Positions 13,441 through 57,708 of a stretch of 64,000 nucleotides of DNA are shown here, piece by piece. The notes beneath the pieces were generated by a model. The model worked only from the letters and a program-made list of their open reading frames with translations, was not told the origin of the DNA and did not search any database. The translations under genes and the position numbers were made by a program. The DNA is from [Leptolyngbya] sp. PCC 7376 (GTDB lineage Bacteria; Cyanobacteriota; Cyanobacteriia; Cyanobacteriales; MRBY01): positions 1,348,036 to 1,412,035 of the forward strand of contig NC_019683.1 in NCBI RefSeq assembly GCF_000316605.1, in the 5' to 3' direction. Within the stretch, counting starts at the first letter, position 1, and each line of letters begins with the position of its first letter.

Positions 13441-15132
13441 ATGAGTGAGAATCAAAACCGACGTAGCCGTGTTGTAACCGAAGGCCATCAGCGGAGTCCG
13501 AACCGGGCAATGCTCCGTGCTGTGGGCTTTGGGGATGATGATTTTAAGAAGCCTATTGTGGGCCTCGCTAACGGCTATAGCACCATTACACCCTGCAATA
13601 TGGGTATTAATGATTTGGCGTTGCGGGCGGAGTCTGCGCTGCGTGATGCTGGCGCGATGCCCCAAATGTTCGGGACGATCACGATTAGTGACGGGATTTC
13701 GATGGGTACTGAAGGGATGAAATATTCTCTCGTCTCCCGTGATGTAATTGCGGATTCCATCGAGACGGCCTGTAACGGCCAAAGTATGGATGCAGTCCTC
13801 GCGATCGGTGGTTGCGATAAGAATATGCCTGGTGCGGTTTTGGCGATCGCCCGGATGAATATCCCTGCAATTTTTGTTTATGGTGGCACCATTAAGCCGG
13901 GTCACCTCGACGGCGAAGATTTGACGGTTGTCAGTTCCTTTGAGGCTGTTGGTCAGTTTAGTGCTGGCAAGATTTCTGAAGAGAAATTAATGGCGATCGA
14001 GAAGAATGCTTGTCCTGGCGCGGGTTCCTGTGGCGGTATGTTCACGGCGAATACGATGTCCTCTGCATTTGAGGCGATGGGCATCAGTTTGCCTTACTCT
14101 TCCACTATGGCGGCGGAAGATGAGGAGAAAGCTATCAGCACTGAAGAGTCTGCAAAAGCTTTGGTGAATGCGGTTAAGAACCAAATTTTGCCGATGGACA
14201 TTCTCACTCGCAAGGCGTTTGAAAATGCGATTTCCGTCATCATGGCTGTTGGTGGCTCCACAAACTCTGTTCTTCATTTGTTGGCGATCGCCAATACCAT
14301 CGGCGTAGAACTCACCCTCGATGACTTCGAAGAAATTCGTCAGCGTGTCCCAGTATTCTGTGACCTCAAGCCTTCTGGGAAATACGTCACCACAAACCTC
14401 CACAAAGCAGGTGGTATTCCCCAAGTGATGAAGATGCTCTTGGATCAAGGCTTACTCCATGGCGACTGCATGACTATCACTGGCAAAACTGTTGCAGAAA
14501 ACCTTGCAGACATTCCTAGTGAACCTCCTGCGGATCAAGATGTCATCCGCAAGTTCGACAATCCCCTTTATAAAGTTGGTCACCTGGCGATTCTCAAAGG
14601 TAATCTGGCTCAAGAAGGCTCTGTCGCGAAAATCAGTGGCGTTAAAAAGCCTGCAATCACTGGCCCCGCCCGCGTATTCGAATCTGAAGAAGAATGTCTC
14701 GATGCAATCCTCGCTGGCAAAATTAGTGCAGGCGATGTGATTATCGTTCGCTATGAAGGCCCCAAAGGTGGCCCCGGAATGCGTGAAATGTTGGCTCCCA
14801 CCTCCGCAATTATTGGTGCAGGTCTCGGCGATTCCGTTGGTTTGATTACTGATGGCCGTTTCTCTGGCGGCACCTATGGTCTTGTGGTTGGACACGTTGC
14901 ACCGGAAGCCTATGTTGGCGGCAATATTGGTCTCGTGAAAGAAGGCGACAGCATCACCATCGATGCCAACCAACTTCTCCTACAAATCAACGTATCCGAT
15001 GAAGAGTTAGCAAAACGCCGTGAAGCATGGACTCCTCGTCCTCCTCGTTACAAGCGTGGTGTTCTCGGTAAGTATGCAAAGATCGTTTCTTCCAGCAGTA
15101 AAGGTGCTGTGACAGATATCGATCTATTCTAA
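13441..15132 (+). CDS. ilvD: Dihydroxy-acid dehydratase
   Basis: This enzyme dehydrates 2,3-dihydroxy-isovalerate and dihydroxy-methylvalerate to the 2-oxo acids in valine and isoleucine synthesis. The 563 residues match the usual length. The iron-sulfur ligand regions are present: [19 protein letters not shown] and [18 protein letters not shown]. The C-terminal active-site loop [20 protein letters not shown] is intact. The three-Cys pattern fits the [2Fe-2S] type. The start ATG at 13441 aligns with the family N-terminus ([19 protein letters not shown]). Confidence 0.97.
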
Positions 15133-44379: not shown

Positions 44380-44717
44380 AGCTTAATTTTGGGGAGGGCA
44401 GGCGATCGCATATTTATAATTCTGCGTAAATCCATCGTAAATCTCCACTCTGCTTTTTTTATATTGTCCTTGCAAGTGTTGCTTAAAGATCCTAACAAGA
44501 TCGTCGAGAGACCCCTAAGTATTTTGTGAACTGACATCCGCCTAAAAGCGTACAAAAATAGCTTATAAATTACGGCGATCACCTTCCGGTGCTTGAAATT
44601 CAGTAACAGTACTGTGAGTTGGGAATCTGATGCGTTACTCAGTGCGGCGATCGCTTTTTTGAATTATGCATGATCGTCTACAGGAATTTGTGAGAAACCG
44701 CATTCTATTCGTTTCGC
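44380..44717. other. Intergenic region between DUF928 and hlyD
   Basis: About 340 nt. It includes a GCGATCGC palindrome followed by TTTTTT (44646-44659) that could act as a weak plus-strand terminator. A 68-codon minus frame at 44376-44582 has no ribosome binding site or recognisable protein, and I leave it out. Confidence 0.45.
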
Positions 44718-44777
44718 AAAGCACGATTAGCTACAGATTTTTAAACACACTCAAAAATCTGTAGCTAATCGTGCTTT
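44718..44777. repeat. 25-bp perfect inverted repeat at the 3' end of hlyD
   Basis: Positions 44718-44742 are the exact reverse complement of 44753-44777, with a 10-nt loop (AAACACACTC). The inner arm includes the last eight codons of hlyD (RKARLATDF, stop at 44751). No T-run follows on either strand, so it is not a standard terminator, although it could protect the mRNA end. Confidence 0.92.
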
Positions 44778-46184
44778 CCGTAACAGAAATGCTAAAAAAG
44801 TCTCTTCTTTCGTCACAATAGAAACATTCCCCTCCATCCCAGCTTGTAAAGTGCAGGAAGAGTAGATATCACCAAAAGTATTACTTTGTGGTGTGATGAT
44901 AGCTTTATAAAAAGATTGGTTATTACTGATAAAAGTATCTGTCGATATTTCTTTCAGCACCCCCGAAAGAGTCCCATAATCAGGATAAGGACACGCTGAA
45001 ATTCTAATTTGTGCTGTTTGTCCTATTTCAAGATTATGAATATCAGCAGCCGAAATTAGAGCATTAATAGTTAAAGGAGCATTCTGGGGTGAAATTTGAG
45101 CAATTTCTGTACCGGGTTGCACCCTTTGACTTGAGTTACGCAATAAAAGTTTAAGAACAGTACCACTAGTGGGAGCAGTAATAACCCCTCGTTGTATCTG
45201 CTTCTCAACTTGTTTTAATGCTATTTCTTCGCGATCACCTTGTTTTTGCAGCTCAATACTTTGGCCGAGCAATAAATTCTTTTCCCTTTTAAGATCAGCT
45301 TGTATAGCCATAAAGGCAGCTTTTTCTCTTGCAATAGCTTGTTGTGTAATTTTTACTTCAGAGTCGCTAGGATTTAAAGCAATTTTAGCTTTTTCCCATC
45401 TTCCTTGGGCAATTTGAAGCGTTTGTTTACCAGTTTCAATCTCTTGAATTTGTACCAAAACATTCTGCTTTTTTTGTTCCACACCAAGCTGAATTTCCTT
45501 TAATAGTTCTTGAGAGATTGCTCCTGTTTCGGTGAGGGGAGCATATCGTTTGAATTTTTCTTGTTCAGCTTCTAACTCAGCTTTTGCCGCATCTAAATGA
45601 GCAAAGGATATCTTTAATTCTGCTTCTTCTCGTTTTATATCAGCTTGGGTTTCTTCTAGATCTTTTTCTGTGGTAGATTGACGATCCTGATATTCTCGTT
45701 TCTGACCAGCTAATTGAGCTTCTAGGGAAAGAATAATACGATTATATCTCTCTGTTTCTGCTATCAACTGACGATCTAAAGCAATCATTTGTTGATTAAT
45801 CTGTCGTTGTTGTTGGGCTAACTTTTCCAAAGAACCCTGTAACTGTATTTGTTCAAGCTGTAATTGAGAATCATCAAGAAGAGCTATTGTTTCTCCAGCT
45901 TGAACAAATTGATTTTCTTTAACCTTAATGGTTTTAACAGTTCCTTCTTCGGTAGATTCTACAATTTGTATTTCTCCTTCAGGACGAATCGTAGTGCTCG
46001 CCTCAACTGTCACCTTATATTTAGTCACAGCTGCCAAAATAAAAGCTGAAACCATTGTCGTCGCTAAGGCTAGTCCTCCCAAACTTAGCCAAGGACTAAT
46101 TGGGGGTAAAAATTCTTGCTCAGAAATAGTTGGTAAAACAGCTTCTTCATTGGAATGGACCATTGATAAATCTAGGCTCACCAT
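44751..46184 (-). CDS. HlyD-family membrane-fusion protein for peptide export
   Basis: HlyD-type adaptors link an inner-membrane exporter to the outer membrane. The 477 residues have one membrane helix (LSLGGLALATTMVSAFILAAV, ~33-53) and a biotinyl-lipoyl half (EEGTVKTIKVKENQFVQAGETIALLDD). A long coiled coil (~105-310) is followed by the closing half (ITAPTSGTVLKLLLRNSSQRVQPGTEIAQI) and a beta-barrel domain. It lies downstream of lanA and should serve LanT, since a Gram-negative cell needs a periplasmic bridge. It ends within the 25-bp inverted repeat at 44718-44777. Confidence 0.9.
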   Translation of the reverse strand: MVSLDLSMVHSNEEAVLPTISEQEFLPPISPWLSLGGLALATTMVSAFILAAVTKYKVTVEASTTIRPEGEIQIVESTEEGTVKTIKVKENQFVQAGETIALLDDSQLQLEQIQLQGSLEKLAQQQRQINQQMIALDRQLIAETERYNRIILSLEAQLAGQKREYQDRQSTTEKDLEETQADIKREEAELKISFAHLDAAKAELEAEQEKFKRYAPLTETGAISQELLKEIQLGVEQKKQNVLVQIQEIETGKQTLQIAQGRWEKAKIALNPSDSEVKITQQAIAREKAAFMAIQADLKREKNLLLGQSIELQKQGDREEIALKQVEKQIQRGVITAPTSGTVLKLLLRNSSQRVQPGTEIAQISPQNAPLTINALISAADIHNLEIGQTAQIRISACPYPDYGTLSGVLKEISTDTFISNNQSFYKAIITPQSNTFGDIYSSCTLQAGMEGNVSIVTKEETFLAFLLRKARLATDF

Positions 46185-46210
46185 AATTATATTTAGGGTA
46201 AAGACCCAGA

Positions 46211-46285
46211 GATAAACTCTAGGTCTCCTGAGATTTATCTAGGGAAAGTAATTAAATTCGACCAATCCTCTTATTTTCCCTAGAT
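46211..46285 (-). other. Paired hairpins between lanA and hlyD
   Basis: An 11-bp perfect stem (46237-46247 with 46275-46285) and a second stem (about 46210-46220 with 46229-46240, one bulge) lie in the 111-nt gap. They share one segment, so they could be mutually exclusive. Neither has a T-run. Hairpins after lanA genes commonly stabilise the precursor mRNA and limit read-through, which is the likely role here. Confidence 0.6.
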
Positions 46286-46295
46286 GAATTTTTCC

Positions 46296-46538
46296 TTAGG
46301 CAATGGTCAACTCTTCACTAGCTTCAAGCGAGCCAGATTTGCAAGACCAGTTACAGGTATGGGTAAATCCAGTTCCACCAGTACAGGTAGTACAACCTCC
46401 CGAAAGTGAAGACATGTCTTCATCATTCAATTCGATTAAACCTGCGGGATTTTCTGGTAACAGGCTTAACTGTTCTTGACTTAAACTGGCTCGGTAATCT
46501 TCATCTTTCCAAGCACGAACGATATCAAAATTAGACAT
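46296..46538 (-). CDS. lanA: Class II lanthipeptide precursor (mersacidin/lichenicidin-type leader)
   Basis: This 80-residue peptide has a leader of the mersacidin/lichenicidin family (SNFDIVRAWKDEDYRASLS, then LLPENPAGLIEL). The leader ends in the double-glycine site MSSLSGG for C39-peptidase cleavage. The predicted core is 32 residues, starting CTTCTGGTGFTHTCNWSC and ending EASEELTIA, with four Cys, one His, six Thr and four Ser. The start has an AGAGG ribosome binding site 5 nt away. A Fur-like box lies 66-84 nt upstream, separate from the lanM promoter. Confidence 0.9.
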   Translation of the reverse strand: MSNFDIVRAWKDEDYRASLSQEQLSLLPENPAGLIELNDEDMSSLSGGCTTCTGGTGFTHTCNWSCKSGSLEASEELTIA

Positions 46539-46603
46539 TTTGACCTCTGTATTTTTTAGTTAGGACGACTTATTCAGTCTGCAAAATATCATACCGCTTT
46601 TTT

Positions 46604-46622
46604 GAGAATGATTATCATTTTC
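46604..46622. promoter_or_regulatory. Fur box upstream of lanA
   Basis: GAGAATGATTATCATTTTC matches the 19-bp Fur consensus GATAATGATAATCATTATC at 16 positions. It contains the perfect palindrome AATGATTATCATT. A TATGAT -10 element lies just downstream on the minus strand (about 46588-46593), so a bound repressor would cover the -35 region. Confidence 0.8.
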
Positions 46623-46666
46623 AAGTTTTCTGTAACAAAATGGCGTGAAATTCCCTATCCAGTGGG

Positions 46667-48811
46667 TTACGGAGTCAAAAAATGAAGATGAGAACCGGTT
46701 TGGGCAAAGAGTTCCTGTGGTGTTCCTTGTCGTTTGACTGTTCCCCTTTCCAAGAAAACGATCCAATCTGCACGGGTAATAACTTGAGGACGATGACTAA
46801 TCAAAATTGTCGTTTTACCTTGACGATGGTTAAGAAGACGAGTGATCACTTCAGTTTCACAAACTGGATCGAGATTAGCTGTAGATTCGTCAAGGATCAA
46901 AATTGGCGAGTTGCTAACAATGCCTAATGCTAGGGCAAGTCGTTGTCTTTGCCCCCCAGAAAGATTGGCTCCAAATTCTCCTAAGATAGTTTGATATTGA
47001 TTGGGAAGTTTACTAATAAATTCATCTGCTTGGGCAATTTTACAAGCTTGAACTATTGTCGAAAAATCGATAGCTGAGTTGCCTAGGCTAAGATTTTCAA
47101 TAATGGAGCGACTCCAAAAGTGAGTCTCTTGGGGTATTAAAACAATTTGCTCTCGAATGGAATCAATGGCTAAATCATTGAGGTTATAATCACCGATGCG
47201 GATTTGTCCTGTTTGAGGAAAATATAAACCTGCGATTAATTTAGCGAGGGTACTTTTACCACAACCGGATTCCCCGATTAAGGCGATCGCTTTCCCTCCA
47301 GAAAGAGAGAGATTAAAATTATGAAGTAGTTCTACTCTACCGGGATGATGAAAGGTCAAATCATGGCAAATCAGATCACTGTCAGGCAATAATTTAACCT
47401 TAGGTTTGATTTGATTTGGTTGAACTTCAGGGGTAGCATCAATAACATCACTAAGACGTTCTAAGGCTGATTGGACAAAAACCAACTGATTAACAAAATC
47501 AATAGTTAAAGTGATAAAACTCAAGGCGTTTTTGCTCATGATATTACAGGCAACTAATTGACCGATAGTTAAATTGCCTTGAAAAACGAGTCGACTACCG
47601 AACCAAAGTAGAATTGCTTCCCCAGTCCGTAAAATAAAGCCTGAGAAAGTGGAATTAAAAATAGCAATCTGTGATCGTTGAAAGTTAACTTTGGCTTGCC
47701 GACCAAATCTCGCTTGAAATTCATCTAAAAATTGGGAGGTAGCATTTTTAGTTTTCATGATTAGTGCCCCCTTGAAAGTTTCTACCAAAACCCCTTGATT
47801 TTCGGCTGTTAACGCTAAAAGTTTTTGTGTTTTCCTTTTGATTTGAGTCCAAAAAATCAAAGTGGACAAACACATAACTATGCCAATAATAAAGGTGATA
47901 AAAAGAAGGTTATAGCTATATAAAAAAATTAAAATTAGAGAAATCAAAGCAATAAATAATTGACTAGGTAACAGAATTAAAGCTTGAGAAACAAGTTGAT
48001 TGACTGCTTGAATATCTCGTAAACGGCTAGCTACTTCCCCACTACGGTGGGATTCATAATAGGCTAAGGGCAAGGATAAAATTGAACGACAGAACTCTAT
48101 CACTAAACTAAGTTCTAAGCCTTGCGAAAAATGGGTTACTAAATAAGACTGGATAAATCTAAAACTACTTCTAAATAGGTTGGAGATGAAAACAGCAATA
48201 ATTACGCCATTAAGGAGTGTTATATCTTGAGTAACCAAGACTTCATCTGTGAGAATTTGCAATAGAAATGGTGAAGTTAAAGCTAAAATCCCAATCATCA
48301 AATTAAGTAACAGAACTTGCCCTAAAAGGCGCTTTTTTTTTGAAAAATAAGCTAAAAAACGTTGGTAATTATTGATCTTACGGCGATCGTCAAGTTGGTG
48401 ATGAAATTCAGGACGAGGTTCGAGTAATAACATCGCCCCATTAGTCCAACCTTTCAATAATTCTGCTTTGGATAAATAACGTAAACCTACAGCTGGATCT
48501 GCGACGATGTATTTATGTCCTTTTTTGCCGTATAAAACAACCCAGTGGACACCTTGCCAGTGAATAATACCGGGTAATGGAATGACGTCTTGATCGATTA
48601 ACTCTAGGGGAACTTTCACTCCCTTAGCATCAAATAAAAGGGTTTTTGCTCCCTGTTTAAGATTTAATAAAGTAGTGCCTAACGCTCCTGTTCCTGCTAC
48701 TTCCCGAACTCGATGGAGGGAAAAAAATTGACCGTAATATTTGGCACAAGTGGCTAAACAAGCAGCACCACAGTCTTCTTCATTATGTTGAAGGATAACC
48801 TGGTATTTCAT
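46667..48811 (-). CDS. lanT: Peptidase-containing ABC exporter (LanT)
   Basis: This 714-residue protein cuts the leader after GG and exports the peptide. The C39 peptidase has catalytic Cys14 in EEDCGAACLA, His in GVHWVVLYG and Asp in IVADPAVG. Six membrane helices cover ~160-440 (for example LLGQVLLLNLMIGILALTSPF). The ATPase has Walker A IGESGCGKST, signature LSGGQRQRLALA and Walker B ILILDESTANLD. The gene overlaps the lanM stop by 4 nt, a coupled junction. Confidence 0.95.
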   Translation of the reverse strand: MKYQVILQHNEEDCGAACLATCAKYYGQFFSLHRVREVAGTGALGTTLLNLKQGAKTLLFDAKGVKVPLELIDQDVIPLPGIIHWQGVHWVVLYGKKGHKYIVADPAVGLRYLSKAELLKGWTNGAMLLLEPRPEFHHQLDDRRKINNYQRFLAYFSKKKRLLGQVLLLNLMIGILALTSPFLLQILTDEVLVTQDITLLNGVIIAVFISNLFRSSFRFIQSYLVTHFSQGLELSLVIEFCRSILSLPLAYYESHRSGEVASRLRDIQAVNQLVSQALILLPSQLFIALISLILIFLYSYNLLFITFIIGIVMCLSTLIFWTQIKRKTQKLLALTAENQGVLVETFKGALIMKTKNATSQFLDEFQARFGRQAKVNFQRSQIAIFNSTFSGFILRTGEAILLWFGSRLVFQGNLTIGQLVACNIMSKNALSFITLTIDFVNQLVFVQSALERLSDVIDATPEVQPNQIKPKVKLLPDSDLICHDLTFHHPGRVELLHNFNLSLSGGKAIALIGESGCGKSTLAKLIAGLYFPQTGQIRIGDYNLNDLAIDSIREQIVLIPQETHFWSRSIIENLSLGNSAIDFSTIVQACKIAQADEFISKLPNQYQTILGEFGANLSGGQRQRLALALGIVSNSPILILDESTANLDPVCETEVITRLLNHRQGKTTILISHRPQVITRADWIVFLERGTVKRQGTPQELFAQTGSHLHFLTP

Positions 48812-51800
48812 ATTTTAATATTGACAGGAGATTCAAGTAACAATACAGAAGGAATACGATCGCAAAAAGCTAAACGAATTAATTCATAACCCATACCAGC
48901 TAAGCCTGTCATTAATCCTAAAGTTTCTACTCCTAAGGGGACACCACAGTCGTAACCTTGTCTTTCAATGCTATTAAGTACTTGGCTGATTTTTTGATAA
49001 TAAGTGTTGGTAAGTTCTTTGTGAGATAAGGTATTTATTCCTTGTAGGAGTAGTTCTAAACTACCTAAATCACCACTACATATGGAATGGTTATTACCAA
49101 AACCTAGTGCCATGGTGGTTTCCATTGCTATATTAATTTCCGAGTTGATTTGTGCGGTTTTTAGCTGAGAAAGACTACTTAAACGAGCTAAACCAATTCC
49201 TGTTGCACCATAACTCCAAGTAACTGCCAAGTTTTCTTGGTCTTTTTCACTATTGTGCCAATTTTTTTTGGTAGCAGAAAAAAGACTTCGTTCATATTTC
49301 CATCCTTCCAAAGCTATTTCTTGATAACGTTGATCTCCTGTAAAAGCAGCTAGTTTTAATAAGGCTAGGGAAATTCCTGCAGCTCCATGGGAAAAACCAC
49401 TTAAGGGTCTTTGACTGGGAATTGTTGACCATCCAATGCCTTCTTTCATGGAAATGGCTTTTTCTAAAAGGCGATCGCCACACTGTATTGCCACAGTCTT
49501 AATATTTTCATCTTGAACCCAATCATAGAGATTAATGAGGGCTAAAATGCAGCCACTAGAACCAGCGACAATATCTAATTGTTCATCTTTTGCAATGAGA
49601 GGAGGCAATTTTTTGAGCCATTCTAAAGCACGATTATCTAATTCTGGTTGTTGCCATAAAGTCCCTAAATGAGTGATTGTATGAATAATTCCACCCCAAC
49701 CATCAAAACCACCGACAGAAGCGATTAAGTCTTGATCGAAGTCAATTTGAATTAAGATAGTTTCTAAAGTATCTTTAGCCAGTTTTGTATATTTTTGTTT
49801 TTGAGTGATTTCTCCTAAATAGGCAAAAAATAGAGCGATTCCGGGAAGTCCTCCAAATAAATCCCAAGCTAAAGGTTTAACTGTCCAATGTCTTTCTCCT
49901 GCTGAATTTAAACCAATCCAACTTGCTTGATTTTTATCTCGAATGGCTAATGATTCTAGGCGAGAGGCAATCTTCTCGGCTGTTTCTAATAATCGATCTT
50001 GAAGTTGTTTCCAATTCTCAATTTTTTCAAATTCTTGCTCCTTATCTATCGCTTTTGTTTGTTTAGTTTCCACTGACATGGCTAAACTGCTTAGGGATGT
50101 TCTGATAAACCAGAGCTGTTCTTCTAAATCATTTTCGCTTAAACGTTTAAATCGTTGTTTTACTCGGTCTAATCCTGATGTGTCAAAAAAATCACTGAGT
50201 TTTTCCTCTTCTCCGCAAATATCTCTACAATTTATCTGAGTATAAAAGAAAGGTATATCACCTTGCCAAAGGGCTTTTTTTTCTAACCGAATTACATGTT
50301 TTAAACTGGGGTGATTAGGAACATCAATCCAAAGGCGATCAAAAAGGTGATCGCGGTCGAGAGCATTTCTTAAAGCATCTGGGTGAAAGCTTTCTTGTAA
50401 CAATAATCCATATAATCTAGTATCTCTCAAAACAACCCTGATTTCATCATTAGCAAATTTAGGTAGCCAAAGGTTTAGGAATAAATCTCGATGCTTAAGT
50501 AATAAACGATAAGTTTCAATAAATCCTTTTTCAATATTTTCTTTATGAGTCCAAACTTCTGGTTCTTTTCCCTGTAAATAAGGAACATTTTTACTTCCAG
50601 AAAGAGTCGCAAATTTCCGCTCTACTTGCATTTTATCTGTTCCTTTCCCGGCTAATTCAGGAGTACGGGTAGGTAAAACTTGACTCCCTACTGCACCTAA
50701 CCCGCTCGAATCAAAACCTCCTGAGTGATCTCTGTCCGCTATTCTTTGTGGTAATAATCCTACTCCCATAACAGATTGACCCATTTTGCGATTTGCTATT
50801 AAACGAGACTCTGGAGAATTAGGATCGAGACATTCAGGACGAAATAAAGTTTCTAGGTCAATGAGAATAGGATTTTCTCCATTGGCAATAATATTTTCGA
50901 GGTGAAAATCCGTTGCTTCTAAAGCTGACATCAAGGCTAAATAACTGCCCATGCGTTGATAAAATCGCTCAACTTCAGCTGCACAGCTACAACCTTTGGC
51001 TTCTACAAATTCTACCCAGCCATATTCACCTCGATTGAGTATCTTTAAGAGCGGCAATGGTAACTCTAATTCTTGCTGATTTAACCAGAGCAACAATTCT
51101 TGTAAATGTTCATCTATTCCTAAAGACCTTGGTTTATAAACCAGTTTTAATCCAGAACTAAATTCTAAAATAAAAACTGATCGTCCTTTTCTATGAGTAT
51201 CTCCTGCGCCTGTTTGTATTTTTACTAACGTACCGGGAGAGGAGTGATGATTAAAATGCTCGCAAATGACATCCCAATCCTGATAAAGACGTTGTAAAAA
51301 TTCTAAACTTATGTCTACCCATTGTTTGAGATAAATTATTACTTGTCGCGCTAAGACCGGATATTCTTGAAGTATCTCTAGAGCATCATCTTTGTTCTCT
51401 AAATTGTGTAGAAAACTGATTAAACGCTCCCTCGGAGTTTTTCCTAATAGTCTTTCTTCTAATCTTGCTACATTCAACTCTAAGACCATCGTTTGACTCA
51501 GTATTGCTAGCAATTGCTCTGGAACTTTCGCTGATAAAATTCCCTTAATATTTTCTGTTCCAAAGAGAATATTGTTGCCTAATTTTTCTATGCCTATCTC
51601 TAAACGAATTAAGGCCTGATCTAATAATGGTTTCACTAAATGCAAAAAACCTATACTGAGTCGCTCATCGGTTAGGGTTTCAACTGGTGCAATCTTCACC
51701 TTAGAAATTTCTTCAACTTCAAAGTCTTTAATTAAGGTTTCTAACCAATCCGGATCGGTACAGCGTTGCGCTAAAGAGTCATCTGATTCGCCCAAAATCT

Positions 51801-51996
51801 TCAGAAATTCATTTTCTGTTAATCCTTCTTGGGATAATTTCTGAGCATAACAATGCTCATTTACTAAAGGTTTTTGCGATCGCCAACGTTGGAGACGACG
51901 ATCCGCTAAGTCGGGATTGGTTGTACGGATTTTTTCCAGTCGAGTCAATCTTTCCTGTAAAGGAAGTCCTCTATACCATTGAGCGAATTTAATCAT
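48808..51996 (-). CDS. lanM: Class II lanthipeptide synthetase LanM with altered zinc site
   Basis: LanM phosphorylates and eliminates Ser/Thr of the precursor and then forms thioether rings. I start at ATG 51996 (MIKFAQWYRGLPLQERL); the frame reaches 52086 but that part overlaps the promoter. The dehydratase keeps KLVYKPRSLG, ATDFHLENII, PILIDLETLF and RDTRLYGLLLQES. In the cyclase H870 (GFSHGAAG, NisC His212) and C973 (NisC Cys330) are kept. W927-S928-Y929-G930 has Ser for the first zinc Cys, and C973-S974-G975 has Ser for the zinc His. Dehydration therefore looks intact while zinc-dependent cyclisation is doubtful. Confidence 0.93.
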   Translation of the reverse strand: MIKFAQWYRGLPLQERLTRLEKIRTTNPDLADRRLQRWRSQKPLVNEHCYAQKLSQEGLTENEFLKILGESDDSLAQRCTDPDWLETLIKDFEVEEISKVKIAPVETLTDERLSIGFLHLVKPLLDQALIRLEIGIEKLGNNILFGTENIKGILSAKVPEQLLAILSQTMVLELNVARLEERLLGKTPRERLISFLHNLENKDDALEILQEYPVLARQVIIYLKQWVDISLEFLQRLYQDWDVICEHFNHHSSPGTLVKIQTGAGDTHRKGRSVFILEFSSGLKLVYKPRSLGIDEHLQELLLWLNQQELELPLPLLKILNRGEYGWVEFVEAKGCSCAAEVERFYQRMGSYLALMSALEATDFHLENIIANGENPILIDLETLFRPECLDPNSPESRLIANRKMGQSVMGVGLLPQRIADRDHSGGFDSSGLGAVGSQVLPTRTPELAGKGTDKMQVERKFATLSGSKNVPYLQGKEPEVWTHKENIEKGFIETYRLLLKHRDLFLNLWLPKFANDEIRVVLRDTRLYGLLLQESFHPDALRNALDRDHLFDRLWIDVPNHPSLKHVIRLEKKALWQGDIPFFYTQINCRDICGEEEKLSDFFDTSGLDRVKQRFKRLSENDLEEQLWFIRTSLSSLAMSVETKQTKAIDKEQEFEKIENWKQLQDRLLETAEKIASRLESLAIRDKNQASWIGLNSAGERHWTVKPLAWDLFGGLPGIALFFAYLGEITQKQKYTKLAKDTLETILIQIDFDQDLIASVGGFDGWGGIIHTITHLGTLWQQPELDNRALEWLKKLPPLIAKDEQLDIVAGSSGCILALINLYDWVQDENIKTVAIQCGDRLLEKAISMKEGIGWSTIPSQRPLSGFSHGAAGISLALLKLAAFTGDQRYQEIALEGWKYERSLFSATKKNWHNSEKDQENLAVTWSYGATGIGLARLSSLSQLKTAQINSEINIAMETTMALGFGNNHSICSGDLGSLELLLQGINTLSHKELTNTYYQKISQVLNSIERQGYDCGVPLGVETLGLMTGLAGMGYELIRLAFCDRIPSVLLLESPVNIKI

Positions 51997-52013
51997 TGGT
52001 TTAAAAAATATAT

Positions 52014-52032
52014 GAGAATGATTGTCGTAATC
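52014..52032. promoter_or_regulatory. Fur-like box upstream of lanM
   Basis: GAGAATGATTGTCGTAATC matches 14 of 19 positions of the Fur consensus. The half-sites AATGATT and AATCATT (52017-52034 region) form an inverted pair. It lies 18 nt before the lanM ATG, close enough to block transcription or the leader region. It is weaker than the other two boxes. Confidence 0.55.
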
Positions 52033-52294
52033 ATTATTGGTTAGCAAAAAAATTATGTGGCATCCCAGAATCAAAGTGATTTTCAAGGGCGCTCTCAGGC
52101 CTTGATTTCCCTGGATTGTGGAAGGAAAATCGCCTGTGTTGTCAAATAGTTTTTAAAACCAAAATCTTTGTGCATTTCTACGATCATTTAGTTTAGATAC
52201 CTTTCAGAGTTAAGTGCTGAAAGAGAGCTGCACCACGATACAGAGGGTCTAGTCGCCTTAGCCAAACATAGTCAGTTAAGCTTTCTCCAGGAAT

Positions 52295-52313
52295 GATAAT
52301 GATTATCATTTTA
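52295..52313. promoter_or_regulatory. Fur box in the iron-porin promoter
   Basis: GATAATGATTATCATTTTA matches 16 of 19 Fur consensus positions, and 52294-52308 (TGATAATGATTATCA) is a perfect 7-1-7 Fur palindrome. A TATAGA -10-like sequence follows at about 52316-52321, 37 nt before the porin ATG. Confidence 0.88.
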
Positions 52314-52357
52314 ACTATAGAATGACTAGACTGACTTTAAGGTGTAAGGAAATCTTC

Positions 52358-54166
52358 ATGACCGAAATGTTTAATAAAGTTATTGCAACATCAGTGACTG
52401 TATCAATCCTAGGGATTTTGCCCTACGCAGAGGCGAGCGCCGCACCGACCAATTTTCTAGAAATGCAGGACAGTCTACTCTCCCAACAAAACTCCCTTGG
52501 CCAAGTAAACAGCGTCTTCCAACTGCGTGATATCGCCCCTTCCGACTGGGCCTTCGACGCACTCCGCAACCTTGTCGAAAAATATAACTGCATTGCTGGT
52601 TACCCTGACAGCACATTCCGAGGTGATCGCCCCCTCAGCCGTTACGAATTTGCAGCTGGTCTGAACGCTTGTGTACAACAGATTGAACGCTTAATTGTTG
52701 GCGGTGGTTCTGATGTTGATACCGCAGATATCACTCGTTTACAGGCACTAGTGCAAGAATTTGAAGCAGAATTGGGCACCCTCAGTGCACGCGTTGACGA
52801 CGTTGGAGGTCGCGTTGAATTCCTCGAAGACAACCAGTTTTCCATTACAACCAAGCTGAAAGGAGAAGTTGTTTTTGCTTTAACAGACGTTTTAACAGGA
52901 GATAGCACAACCTCAACTTTTCCCTCGATTTTTAGCCCTACTGGCAATATTGATATAGAAAATCCCAGTCAACAAACAGTTTTTGCCAATCGAGTTCGTT
53001 TAGATTTTCTTACCAGTTTCACCGGTCAGGATTTACTTAAAGCTCGTCTCACCAGCGGTAATTTTCCCCATCCCAATCGTCCCGGAGGATTTCAATATGC
53101 ACCTAATCCTTTACGGGGGTATCAAGGAGGTTTAGCTTTTTCCTCTGAAGGTCAACAAACCTTTAACGATATTGCAGATTTACCTGGTGATAATTCAGTC
53201 GGAATAACCGAATTAAGCTATGAATTTCCTATCGGTGACAAAGCTGAAGTAACAATTATGGCTACAGGAGGAGAACACCACGACTATGTACCCAGCACAT
53301 TTAGTAGTTGGGATGATGATAATGGAGGTACAGGTTCTCTTTCCGTTTTCGGACAACGTAGTGCAATTTATAACTTTGCAGGATCAGGTATCGGGTTAAA
53401 CTATGACTTCAACGACAGCATTAACATTAGTGCGGGTTATCTAGCTACTTATGCCAGTAATCCTAGCAGTCCAGATATAGGTAATCCTTTTGCCGGAGGG
53501 TTATTTGATGGTAGATACTCAGCTCTAGCACAATTAACTATTAAACCGACCGATAATTTTTCCTTTGGTTTAACCTACAGCCATAGTTTCCATCCCGTAG
53601 AAACTCCATTTAATAGCTTACCTATTTTCTTCAATGATCAAGGGACAAATTTAGCAAATTTCCCTGTTGTTCCGACTCAAGAAGTTTCAGTTAATTCCTA
53701 TGGTTTGCAGACTTTATGGGAATTAAGTCCTAAGTTTGCTGTAAATGCTTGGTTTGCCTACAATCAGATTAATACTTCAAGTGGTACAGCACCCTTTGGT
53801 TTGGGTGACTATAGTAGTAGTACTGCAGACGTCTTAACTTACGGAATTTCTTTGGCCTTTCCTGACTTGCTCAAAGAAGGTAACTTAGGCGGTGTTGTAG
53901 TGGGGGCATCTCCCTACGCAACTGAAGCAAGAGTTCCTGAACCTTTTCGCACTGGCGGTAATTGGTTTGGGTCAGATTTGGGAGATGATTATACTGATTT
54001 AATTGCCGGAAATTCTATTCCTTGGCATATTGAGGCATTTTATCGCCACCAAATGACAGACAATATTTCTTTAACTCCTGGTGTTATTTGGTTAACTGCA
54101 CCTAATCAGTCTTCTCAAAATCCTGATGTAGTAGTTGGCACACTTAGACTAACTTTCTCTTTCTAG
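52358..54166 (+). CDS. Iron-uptake porin with SLH domain (OprB-type)
   Basis: This ~602-residue outer-membrane protein has a signal peptide (VIATSVTVSILGILPYAEASA). One SLH domain follows (DIAPSDWAFDALRNLVEKYN, then GYPDSTFRGDRPLSRYEFAAG), then a short coiled coil (ARVDDVGGRVEFLEDNQ). A beta-barrel of the OprB type ends in Phe (GTLRLTFSF). Members of this family are induced by iron limitation and help inorganic iron uptake in cyanobacteria. The ATG at 52358 has AAGGA 8 nt upstream; the frame opens at 52322, inside the promoter. A strong Fur box supports the iron assignment. Confidence 0.9.
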   Translation: MTEMFNKVIATSVTVSILGILPYAEASAAPTNFLEMQDSLLSQQNSLGQVNSVFQLRDIAPSDWAFDALRNLVEKYNCIAGYPDSTFRGDRPLSRYEFAAGLNACVQQIERLIVGGGSDVDTADITRLQALVQEFEAELGTLSARVDDVGGRVEFLEDNQFSITTKLKGEVVFALTDVLTGDSTTSTFPSIFSPTGNIDIENPSQQTVFANRVRLDFLTSFTGQDLLKARLTSGNFPHPNRPGGFQYAPNPLRGYQGGLAFSSEGQQTFNDIADLPGDNSVGITELSYEFPIGDKAEVTIMATGGEHHDYVPSTFSSWDDDNGGTGSLSVFGQRSAIYNFAGSGIGLNYDFNDSINISAGYLATYASNPSSPDIGNPFAGGLFDGRYSALAQLTIKPTDNFSFGLTYSHSFHPVETPFNSLPIFFNDQGTNLANFPVVPTQEVSVNSYGLQTLWELSPKFAVNAWFAYNQINTSSGTAPFGLGDYSSSTADVLTYGISLAFPDLLKEGNLGGVVVGASPYATEARVPEPFRTGGNWFGSDLGDDYTDLIAGNSIPWHIEAFYRHQMTDNISLTPGVIWLTAPNQSSQNPDVVVGTLRLTFSF

Positions 54167-55905: not shown

Positions 55906-57708
55906 GTGAATTCATATAGAAGACAAGACGCAGAAAACGTTCGTGTGACGGCTGCAAAATTGGCGGCAGCTCGTCCTCATCCGCGCCACATCGCTAACGA
56001 CGATGAACAGAAATTTCGAGTACAGGTTTCAGAAGACAGTAATAAACCCAGCTATCTTGCCAGCTATACCAAAGGCTTGCCCCATGACAACACAACAGGA
56101 CTCATTCGTAATCCTGATGATTTCCAGCAATTTGTAAAGGCGATCGATAGTGGCGACCCACGTGACTTCCAAGACACACCACTAGGCCCTAAAGGCTATA
56201 CCGAAGAAAATGGTCAAGGCTGTGGCTGGCGCTCAGTCAGTGCAGCTAATGCCAAAGTCCGTGCATGGGAAAGCCAAGGTGCAGGTAATACCTTCGATTT
56301 AGAAGGGCCAGATGCCCAGGCTGTTACGATGCCTCCCGCTCCAGCTGTGGGGAGTGCTGAGCTGACCGCAGAAATGGCCGAAGTTTATGCCCAAGCTTTA
56401 TTACGCGATGTCCCTTTCACAAAAATTGTGGATGAAAGTGGCACCGTCGATCTTGACCACAATGATTGTTCTGGTGATCAAGGCGTTGACACTTCCGTGA
56501 AAAGAATTCTGAGAACGCTCAATAAACTAGAGTGGTTCAAATCGCAGGATTGTGAATGTTTAACCGATGCTGAAAAGAGTCGCAAACGCGGTTCTTTCAC
56601 TGGTCAAACAGTCTTCCGTGGTATCACTCCTGGTGACAATGTCGGCCCTTACATTTCCCAGTTTTTACTTGCAGGAAATTCTGGTATTAACGGTAATGAC
56701 AACGAGCGCGAACCAGCAAAAGGTTTAATCACTTATGGAGCAGTGAATATCGACCAACGAGTACGATTTGCAACTCCTAATAAGGATTTCATGACTACAT
56801 GGTATGAGTGGCTTGATGTTCAAGAAGGCGCTGATCTCCGTGGCCAAGAATCTTATGTGGAAGGCCCTGCCCGTCGTTTCATTACGACCCCCCGCGATTT
56901 GGCAACCTATGTTCATTACGATGCTCTGTATGAGGCCTATCTAAATGCATGCCTAATTTTGTTGGCAGATGGGATTCCGTTTGACCCCGGCATTCCTTTC
57001 CAACGCAGTGACTTTATTGATCATCAGCAAGGCTTTGCTCATTTTGGCGGCCCTCACATTCTGTCGTTGGTAACTGAAGTCGCAACTCGCGCTCTGAAAG
57101 CGGTTCGCTTCCAGAAGTTTAATGTGCACCGTCGTTTACGTCCCGAGGCTTTGGCTGCCCGTTTAGCACGTTGTGAACAGTTGAATGTTGCTGAAGTTAA
57201 GGAAATGGCTCAAGATCCTGCTCTCGCTAAAATCCTGGGCTGGGTTGCTGAAAAGAATGGCACTGTTGATCCTGTGCTTGGGGATAGAAACTATCTCCTA
57301 CCTATGGCATTTGCTGAAGGATCTCCAATGCACCCATCCTATGGTGCAGGTCATGCCACTGTTGCTGGCGCTTGTGTCACGATTCTCAAAGCTTTCTTTG
57401 ATCACAAGCATCCTTTGACGATCGCCGGTAATGATCACACTGCTTTTGTTCCGACGGAAGATGGTTCTTGTTTGACCAAGGTTTCTGTTGATGGGCAGTT
57501 AACAGTGGAGGGTGAACTCAACAAACTTGCGTCGAATATTTCGATTGGTCGTGATTGGGCTGGTGTTCACTACTTCTCTGATTACATCGAGTCGATTCGC
57601 ATGGGCGAGCAGATTGCGATCGGAATTCTTGAGGAGCAAAAGTTGACCTATGGTGAAAACTTCTCGATGACTGTGCCGCTTTTTGATGGTGGTTCGATTC
57701 GCATCTAG
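55906..57708 (+). CDS. Vanadium-dependent haloperoxidase
   Basis: These enzymes use vanadate and hydrogen peroxide to oxidise bromide or chloride. The 600 residues carry all vanadate-site blocks: KFNVHRRLRPE (Lys and Arg), PMHPSYGAGHATVAGA (Ser, Gly, His) and SIGRDWAGVHYFSD (Arg and the vanadium-linked His). The length and N-region match the bromoperoxidase type found in marine algae and some cyanobacteria, not the acid phosphatases of the same superfamily. No signal peptide is evident. The start is GTG, with an ACGAGG ribosome binding site 9 nt away. A terminator follows at 57764-57809. Confidence 0.93.
   Translation: MNSYRRQDAENVRVTAAKLAAARPHPRHIANDDEQKFRVQVSEDSNKPSYLASYTKGLPHDNTTGLIRNPDDFQQFVKAIDSGDPRDFQDTPLGPKGYTEENGQGCGWRSVSAANAKVRAWESQGAGNTFDLEGPDAQAVTMPPAPAVGSAELTAEMAEVYAQALLRDVPFTKIVDESGTVDLDHNDCSGDQGVDTSVKRILRTLNKLEWFKSQDCECLTDAEKSRKRGSFTGQTVFRGITPGDNVGPYISQFLLAGNSGINGNDNEREPAKGLITYGAVNIDQRVRFATPNKDFMTTWYEWLDVQEGADLRGQESYVEGPARRFITTPRDLATYVHYDALYEAYLNACLILLADGIPFDPGIPFQRSDFIDHQQGFAHFGGPHILSLVTEVATRALKAVRFQKFNVHRRLRPEALAARLARCEQLNVAEVKEMAQDPALAKILGWVAEKNGTVDPVLGDRNYLLPMAFAEGSPMHPSYGAGHATVAGACVTILKAFFDHKHPLTIAGNDHTAFVPTEDGSCLTKVSVDGQLTVEGELNKLASNISIGRDWAGVHYFSDYIESIRMGEQIAIGILEEQKLTYGENFSMTVPLFDGGSIRI

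Follow-up and report, generated by a model that had tools for sequence, protein, structure and literature searches.

The window considered here, a stretch of 64,000 nucleotides from the cyanobacterium [Leptolyngbya] sp. PCC 7376 (contig NC_019683.1, positions 1,348,036 to 1,412,035 of the forward strand), contains a class II lanthipeptide locus that lies divergent from the gene of an outer-membrane porin. The features of the locus are as follows, in window positions and with protein lengths in amino acids (aa).

44751-46184, minus strand: hlyD-type periplasmic adaptor of the peptide exporter (PF13437, 60 bits; TIGR01843 and TIGR01000 below cut-off)
46296-46538, minus strand: lanA, precursor peptide, 80 aa (TIGR03898, E 3.9e-20, 71.5 bits against a cut-off of 23.5)
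46603-46623: Zur box of lanA, TGAGAATGATTATCATTTTCA, without mismatch against the published consensus, 64 base pairs (bp) 5' of the start codon
46611-46638, minus strand: sigma-70-like promoter, TTGTTA-16-GATAAT, its -10 element inside the lanA Zur box
46667-48811, minus strand: lanT, C39 peptidase/ABC exporter, 714 aa (PF03412, PF00664, PF00005)
48808-51996, minus strand: lanM, bifunctional class II synthetase (PF13575 (DUF4135), 428 bits; PF05147 (LANC_like), 227 bits)
49075-49215, minus strand: altered cyclase zinc site within lanM (Cys replaced by Ser at 49213-49215 and His by Ser at 49075-49077, with the Cys at 49078-49080 retained)
52013-52033: Zur box of lanM, degenerate, departing from the consensus at 3 positions
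52294-52314: Zur box before the porin gene, TGATAATGATTATCATTTTAA, 0 mismatches to the published consensus
52358-54166, plus strand: outer-membrane porin with SLH and OprB domains (PF00395, PF04966, NF033921); its open reading frame (ORF) opens at 52322

The original prediction, of a complete class II set beside an OprB-type porin, is borne out by profile matches of all five genes. The traits of class II lanthipeptide systems are present: a LanM with DUF4135 dehydratase and LANC cyclase domains, a double-glycine LanA, a core with Cys and Ser/Thr, and a C39 exporter. The product is predicted to be a class II lanthipeptide containing (methyl)lanthionine. LanM scores 987 bits against TIGR03897 (cut-off 304) and has 1062 aa from an ATG, within a 1092-aa ORF that opens at a TTG at 52086. 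The LanA leader is of the mersacidin type, spans residues 1-48 and ends in SGG; with cleavage assumed after GG, the core reads CTTCTGGTGFTHTCNWSCKSGSLEASEELTIA and is encoded at 46299-46394. An export route is encoded by lanT and hlyD, as judged from their profile matches. The porin, which scores 455 bits against the 'iron uptake porin' model NF033921 (cut-off 100), is read from the strand opposite to lanM, lanT, lanA and hlyD. The genome, a single contig of 5,125,950 bases, holds a single LanC-domain match, and a search of it for YcaO gave no match. The predicted lack of immunity genes holds to the extent that none was recognised among those window ORFs that were read and nine scanned window proteins, no LanFEG or LanI model having been searched.

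The cyanobacterial Zur box consensus is given as NTNANAATGATNATCATTNTNAN (PMC9337993), and that of Anabaena FurA as AAATAAATTCTCAATAAAT (PMC4005646). The exact Zur consensus occurs at only three places in the 5.13-Mb genome, namely at lanA, at the porin gene and at znuA of the znu-zur operon. Seven further sites have two mismatches, one of them before cobW and one between a CobW_C-domain gene and a divergent FAD oxidoreductase gene; of the remainder, four lie in coding sequence and one is intergenic, near an adenylate cyclase-like gene (assigned by eye). Before folE lies a site that has three mismatches but keeps the 13-base core intact. The pattern TGANAATNATTNTCA is found at four places in the genome, two of them at this locus, and the reversed pattern at none; thus the two strong matches are not due to chance. 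At up to three mismatches the genome contains 78 sites against 34 for the reversed pattern, so that the lanM box is weak on its own. The genome encodes three Fur-family proteins, and the one whose gene follows znuB has as its best PDB matches 7ne9 ('Ferric uptake regulator family') and 2o03 ('probable Zinc uptake regulation protein FurB'); we take 7ne9 to be the Zur of WH8102.

Control by Fur and iron had been proposed originally, and the underlying scores against the E. coli-type Fur 19-mer were all reproduced: 16/19 at 46604 (lanA), 16/19 at 52295 (porin) and 14/19 at 52014 and 52020 (lanM). These scores speak for Fur, as does the name of the porin model. However, the Anabaena FurA consensus differs from that of E. 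coli and scores just 9-11/19 within the boxes, with 13/19 for one stretch overlapping the lanA box, and 13/19 or better is reached at 65 places in the window, which is background level. Moreover, boxes of the same type front zinc genes, both in this genome and in relatives, where they precede znu and cobW-like genes; this promoter comparison was made without iron genes, as FeoB, the intended iron control, had no match above cut-off in the genome. With the exact Zur consensus at lanA, porin and znuA, the Fur reading was rejected as very improbable. A metal-starvation operator at the lanthipeptide and porin genes thus stands, but the metal is most likely not iron. Given the exact boxes, the sites at zinc genes and the background level of FurA matches, Zur control is strongly supported by sequence and can be regarded as highly probable. 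The promoter predicted at lanA adds little, its single match standing against a mean of 0.4 (sd 0.6) in shuffled sequences, which is weak evidence and little above chance.

LanM matches with E <=1e-60 occur in 49 of 388 genomes of the class. Among the matches listed, there is a gap in identity between those at 45-59% and those at 35% or less, one fragment at 38% aside. Stretches of DNA were fetched around closer LanM or LanA matches (14) and around more distant LanMs (20); none of the latter 20 contained a box of up to two mismatches. A scan of genome contigs using LanM alone returned four pattern matches and no relative. A contig search with an alignment of seven Zur-type LanAs, in which retrieval relied on conserved leader stretches and not on the core, supplied the best 78 of 103 confirmed places as named loci (numbered with an L below); L074 and L082, on the same contigs as L108 and L115, were dropped before counting. 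In the resulting collection, 28 of 111 lan loci are boxed, the window included, a figure that is not a prevalence because the loci were fetched with LanAs from Zur-type loci. Eighteen of the 83 unboxed loci were judged by title to be non-cyanobacterial.

In 27 boxed loci a box with up to two mismatches lies 51-163 bp upstream of lanA; the 28th, L076, has a three-mismatch lanA box and a two-mismatch box before the gene heading the operon. The 28 loci (475 kb) contain 78 boxes of up to two mismatches, against none for the reversed pattern and a mean of 1.1 (maximum 11) for 40 permuted palindromes, whereas the 83 other loci (1.45 Mb) contain 4, with 3 for the reversed pattern. Apart from the window's own, the group has 23 full-length LanMs, and for 19 of them a box of this quality also lies near the lanM start, within -160 to +300 bases and with boxes of shared divergent promoters counted too. 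The conservation in close homologous loci that was called for in testing the Fur proposal is therefore found in 28 loci, but it is conservation of Zur boxes and not of Fur boxes. In a midpoint-rooted FastTree phylogeny of 103 LanMs, the boxed loci contribute 24 full-length sequences, which together make up a single clade that contains no LanM from an unboxed locus (local support 0.988); shorter ORFs, of up to 900 aa, were omitted from the tree and from the ligand comparison below. To go by their record titles, boxed loci span Spirulina, Coleofasciculus, Nodularia, Anabaena, Trichormus, Fischerella, Calothrix, Nostoc, Microcoleus, Tychonema, Oscillatoria, Okeania, Richelia, Gomphosphaeria and others, and a boxed lanA is present in at least 23 of 388 order genomes, this one included and one of them at three mismatches. 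The cluster is nevertheless patchy, as no LanA was found in five genomes of the same genus.

The genes around the boxed loci were compared with those around the 83 unboxed loci by searching the fetched stretches with 16 query proteins, the significance of the counts being uncorrected for multiple tests. Relatives of the porin accompany 14 of the 28 boxed loci (the window included) and none of the unboxed; in a midpoint-rooted porin tree, the rooting of which is unsafe, the window porin groups with paralogues from its own genome. Relatives of hlyD are found at 25 of 28 against 15 of 83 loci. At least one zinc gene (ZnuA, ZnuB, CobW/COG0523, FolE or Zur) lies near 9 of 28 boxed loci and near a single unboxed one, L150. 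FecCD and Peripla_BP_2 (a substrate-binding protein) are each present at 3/28 against 0/83, a HAF-repeat exoprotein at 6/28 against 0/83, and an FAD oxidoreductase at four boxed and no unboxed loci. TfuA occurs at five boxed loci and YcaO at four, each with one unboxed case, L084 both times. In L115 and L076 the lan genes lie directly beside znuA and znuCB. In L119, lanA and hlyD point away from each other around a single box, and downstream of hlyD, on its strand, lie genes for a TonB-dependent transporter (TBDT), DUF7676, Peripla_BP_2, TonB and FecCD; L075 combines cobW-like genes, hlyD, lanA, lanT, lanM, porin, tfuA and ycaO with five boxes.

Details of several of these neighbours are as follows. 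tfuA and ycaO are adjacent in L075 (16342-18942), L079 (2364-4909), L120 (11191-13918) and L121 (11484-14117), and tfuA stands alone in L134 (105-1544). The loci bearing them have cores that read C[TSC]C..C..HH, and the association suggests thioamide or azole ligands on their peptides; the L075 pair was checked against Pfam. The HAF-repeat protein, which is secreted-looking, is encoded in L118 (4411-5508), L119 (10448-11545), L123 (4020-5081), L124 (1683-2702), L130 (10353-11357) and L133 (7457-9181); in all six its gene sits between lanA and lanM and is divergent from lanM, and the region that these two genes share carries a Zur box. Four of these proteins have a VPEP tail, and that of L133 has RTX repeats. 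A recurrent FAD/NAD(P) oxidoreductase, with a weak match to lysine/ornithine monooxygenases, is associated with Zur boxes in L022 (3381-4649; own genome, box at 3399667), L075 (7504-8718), L125 (3776-5014), L135 and L136.

Further observations concern single places. A porin paralogue in L025 (4788-6551; own genome, around 2,788,800) is marked by a long loop rich in His, Asp and Glu, and has a three-mismatch Zur-like box upstream. L125, from Richelia sp. SL_2_1, has a lanA with a Zur box, znuABC and a TonB receptor, together with a fragment of lanT and no lanM that could be found, and is possibly a decaying or rearranged locus. In L150, from Nostoc linckia z4, a cobW-like gene about 4 kb from the unboxed lanA is preceded by an exact Zur box at 14146. 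In the window itself, a 32-nucleotide inverted repeat (44711-44784; 94% complementary, 10-nucleotide spacer) at the 3' end of hlyD overlaps its last codons and is perhaps a terminator or a mobile repeat, and the product of 55906-57708, of 600 aa, looks vanadium haloperoxidase-like by eye, its match to the PAP2 superfamily falling below cut-off.

By eye, and apart from a few variants, the core peptides of the boxed loci sort into three groups: CTTC..HT.., to which this locus belongs, C[TSC]C..C..HH, and ..HTKTCKHCC-like. L142, the core of which is unreadable, was excluded. Both His and Cys are present in all 27 readable boxed cores, against 14 of 62 unboxed cyanobacterial cores, from which LanAs without a GG/GA end, cores outside 8-70 aa and the 18 non-cyanobacterial loci were excluded; among all unboxed cores, non-cyanobacterial ones included, the count is 24 of 88. 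The Fisher value of 7e-13 for this difference overstates the evidence because the clade is one lineage. As a sign of zinc binding, the universal presence of His and Cys is only suggestive.

The cyclase domain of the window LanM has lost two residues of a Cys/Cys/His triad, which we take to be the zinc ligands of the cyclase. The WCHG and LCHG motifs of LicM2 (6st5) align here with WSYG and ICSG, the altered sites being positions 958 and 1004 of the 1092-aa ORF. Twelve of the 24 clade LanMs, this one included, show such a loss (two ligands in 11 and all three in one), and these 12 form a single subclade with support 1.0; the other 12 keep all ligands. Cys-Cys-His is also kept in 53/53 unboxed LanMs of at least 36% identity. 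Among the 103 LanMs compared, the full site is missing in 8 of the 79 outside the clade, all below 32% identity, so ligand loss is not by itself unique to the clade. Mean within-group identity in dehydratase and cyclase is 0.596/0.595 for the ligand-lost enzymes, 0.609/0.571 for the ligand-kept enzymes and 0.625/0.659 for 20 hand-chosen of the 53 close unboxed LanMs. The ligand-lost cyclase has thus diverged no more than its own dehydratase, although its conservation relative to the dehydratase is lower than that of the unboxed cyclases. At seven cyclase positions that are otherwise near-fixed, two of them zinc ligands, the residues change as a block. Identity kept at the level of the dehydratase, along with this block change, speaks for a domain that has been rebuilt rather than one that is dead. 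A Cys-Cys-His (or three-Cys) zinc site is typical of the cyclase in class II systems but not strictly defining: class III enzymes have no such site and cyclise without zinc.

On balance, the product of the locus is probably a lanthipeptide that is made when zinc is low, is exported and binds zinc, a ribosomal factor resembling a zincophore. A zinc-scavenging tool is the probable reading because a zinc-shortage switch is combined with frequent metal-uptake neighbours. When zinc falls in the cell, Zur would leave its boxes at lanA, lanM and the porin gene, and derepression would follow. LanM would then modify LanA, and the C39 ABC protein LanT together with HlyD would remove the leader and export the core. 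Outside the cell, the short His/Cys core may capture zinc. Uptake would be aided by an outer-membrane protein under the same switch, the porin at this locus, through which the peptide may return; in a few relatives it would possibly proceed via a TonB receptor and a FecBCD-type importer. In the subclade of this locus, the ligand-lost LanM may work without the scarce metal and/or leave Cys thiols free as ligands. A wider proposal, plausible though somewhat doubtful, sees the Zur-induced lanthipeptides of cyanobacteria as one family of ribosomal zincophores that bind zinc via His and free or modified Cys, with one branch using a zinc-independent LanM cyclase, part of which is decorated by YcaO-TfuA (thioamide or azole ligands), and another branch using TonB/FecBCD re-uptake.

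A number of points weigh against the zinc-scavenging account. The cores differ widely among the three groups, and a single conserved ligand set is absent. If LanM closes all rings, the Cys sulphurs become thioethers, which are weak zinc ligands. Importers lie near few of the 28 loci, FecBCD importers often serve iron, and the TBDT count (2/28 against 1/83) is not significant; specific passage of a 3-kDa complex through the porin is unlikely. Six loci (L108, L109, L113, L124, L133 and L140) have no zinc gene, porin or importer nearby, the first four being short contigs of 8-11 kb. YcaO and TfuA also accompany the unboxed lanthipeptide locus L084 (genome G413). The neighbour search favours boxed loci, since 9 of its 16 queries came from other boxed loci and two (porin and HlyD) from the window. 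With the boxed loci forming one clade and 18 of the 83 others non-cyanobacterial, counts and P-values overstate the contrast. At the locus itself, the lanM box is weak, with its three mismatches, and a promoter scan of the lanM/porin region (51950-52400) found none.

The peptide may instead be a lantibiotic under Zur control, released at zinc shortage to kill competitors and so free or monopolise zinc, its metal ligands being incidental. Many class II lanthipeptides kill Gram-positive bacteria, and the LanA leader is of the mersacidin type, both of which favour such a role. However, His is present in all readable boxed cores, the loci are linked to uptake genes, and no immunity gene was recognised in the window or among neighbour families common to at least two of the 28 loci, with some ABC-type matches unclassified and no LanFEG model run; an antimicrobial role is considered unlikely. 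Less probable again is a signal of zinc status or a surface or biofilm factor, a peptide that kin sense or that keeps zinc on the surface of the cell instead of carrying it in. In favour, many cores share a similar short C-terminal tail (..S/T-I/L-A/S, by eye), and six loci encode the HAF-repeat exoprotein between lanA and lanM. Against it, the neighbour families common to at least two loci included no recognised pair of kinase and regulator, and a GAF-like sensor (by eye, unscanned) was seen in L134 and L136 only.

The loss of cyclase zinc ligands in half of the clade also raises the idea of zinc sparing, in which an ordinary lanthipeptide is made throughout and Zur merely switches to a synthetase needing less zinc. 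Zur regulons contain paralogues of zinc enzymes, hemB2 and folE2 (PMC4628125, PMC6103462), which provide a precedent. Against this, the genome has no other LanC-domain gene for which LanM could stand in, lanA itself has an exact box and its own core type, and the other half of the clade LanMs keep all ligands; zinc sparing of this kind is quite improbable.

A zincophore-like peptide has partial parallels in known systems. Lanthipeptides have mostly been studied as antibiotics, and we know of no role for most of those from cyanobacteria. Methanobactin is a ribosomal metallophore, in that case for copper. Class II lanthipeptides with mersacidin/lichenicidin-type leaders (TIGR03898, TIGR03897) share the LanA leader, the LanM with its dehydratase and cyclase, and the C39 LanT with the clade described here; unlike them, this clade has Zur boxes, a metal-uptake neighbourhood and His in every readable core, shows no recognised immunity gene, and has lost cyclase zinc ligands in 12 of 24 LanMs. 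The cyanobacterial Zur regulon, as described for Anabaena, Synechococcus 7002 and WH8102 (PMC6103462, PMC4628125, PMC9337993, PMC10957091), has the operator and the znuABC, folE-type and COG0523 targets in common with the present one, whereas a lanthipeptide target was not found in the passages of those papers that were considered. In the main text of the Anabaena zur exoproteome study (PMC10957091), neither 'lanthi' nor 'lanti' occurs. Like the opine- and nicotianamine-like zincophores discussed there (PMC10957091), the product of this locus would be secreted under the control of Zur to scavenge zinc, and genes for TonB-dependent uptake lie near a few of the loci; known zincophores are enzyme-assembled small molecules (PMC10957091), whereas here a ribosomal peptide made by LanM is predicted to bind zinc. 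ZepA of Anabaena likewise handles extracellular zinc under Zur, but it is a Sec/PEP-CTERM protein of about 27 kDa (PMC10957091) and not an exported modified peptide. Thioamidated peptides of the YcaO-TfuA type, for which 18 TfuA-related clusters are reported from cyanobacteria (PMC8120280), resemble one group of boxed loci, with adjacent tfuA and ycaO in four and tfuA only in a fifth; the likeness does not extend to the PCC 7376 genome, and the main text of that paper does not contain the word 'zinc'. Among the titles and opening parts of abstracts listed in searches of an open-access library, no link between lanthipeptides and Zur was found.

For this clade of lanthipeptides, the sequences indicate when they would be produced, namely when zinc is short. 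This suggests a part in zinc nutrition, and zinc-starved cultures are an obvious place in which to look for the products. A cyclase that lacks the zinc ligands, as in this LanM, offers a direct test of the need for zinc in lanthionine cyclisation. If the peptides do bind zinc, ribosomal peptides would join the known zincophores.

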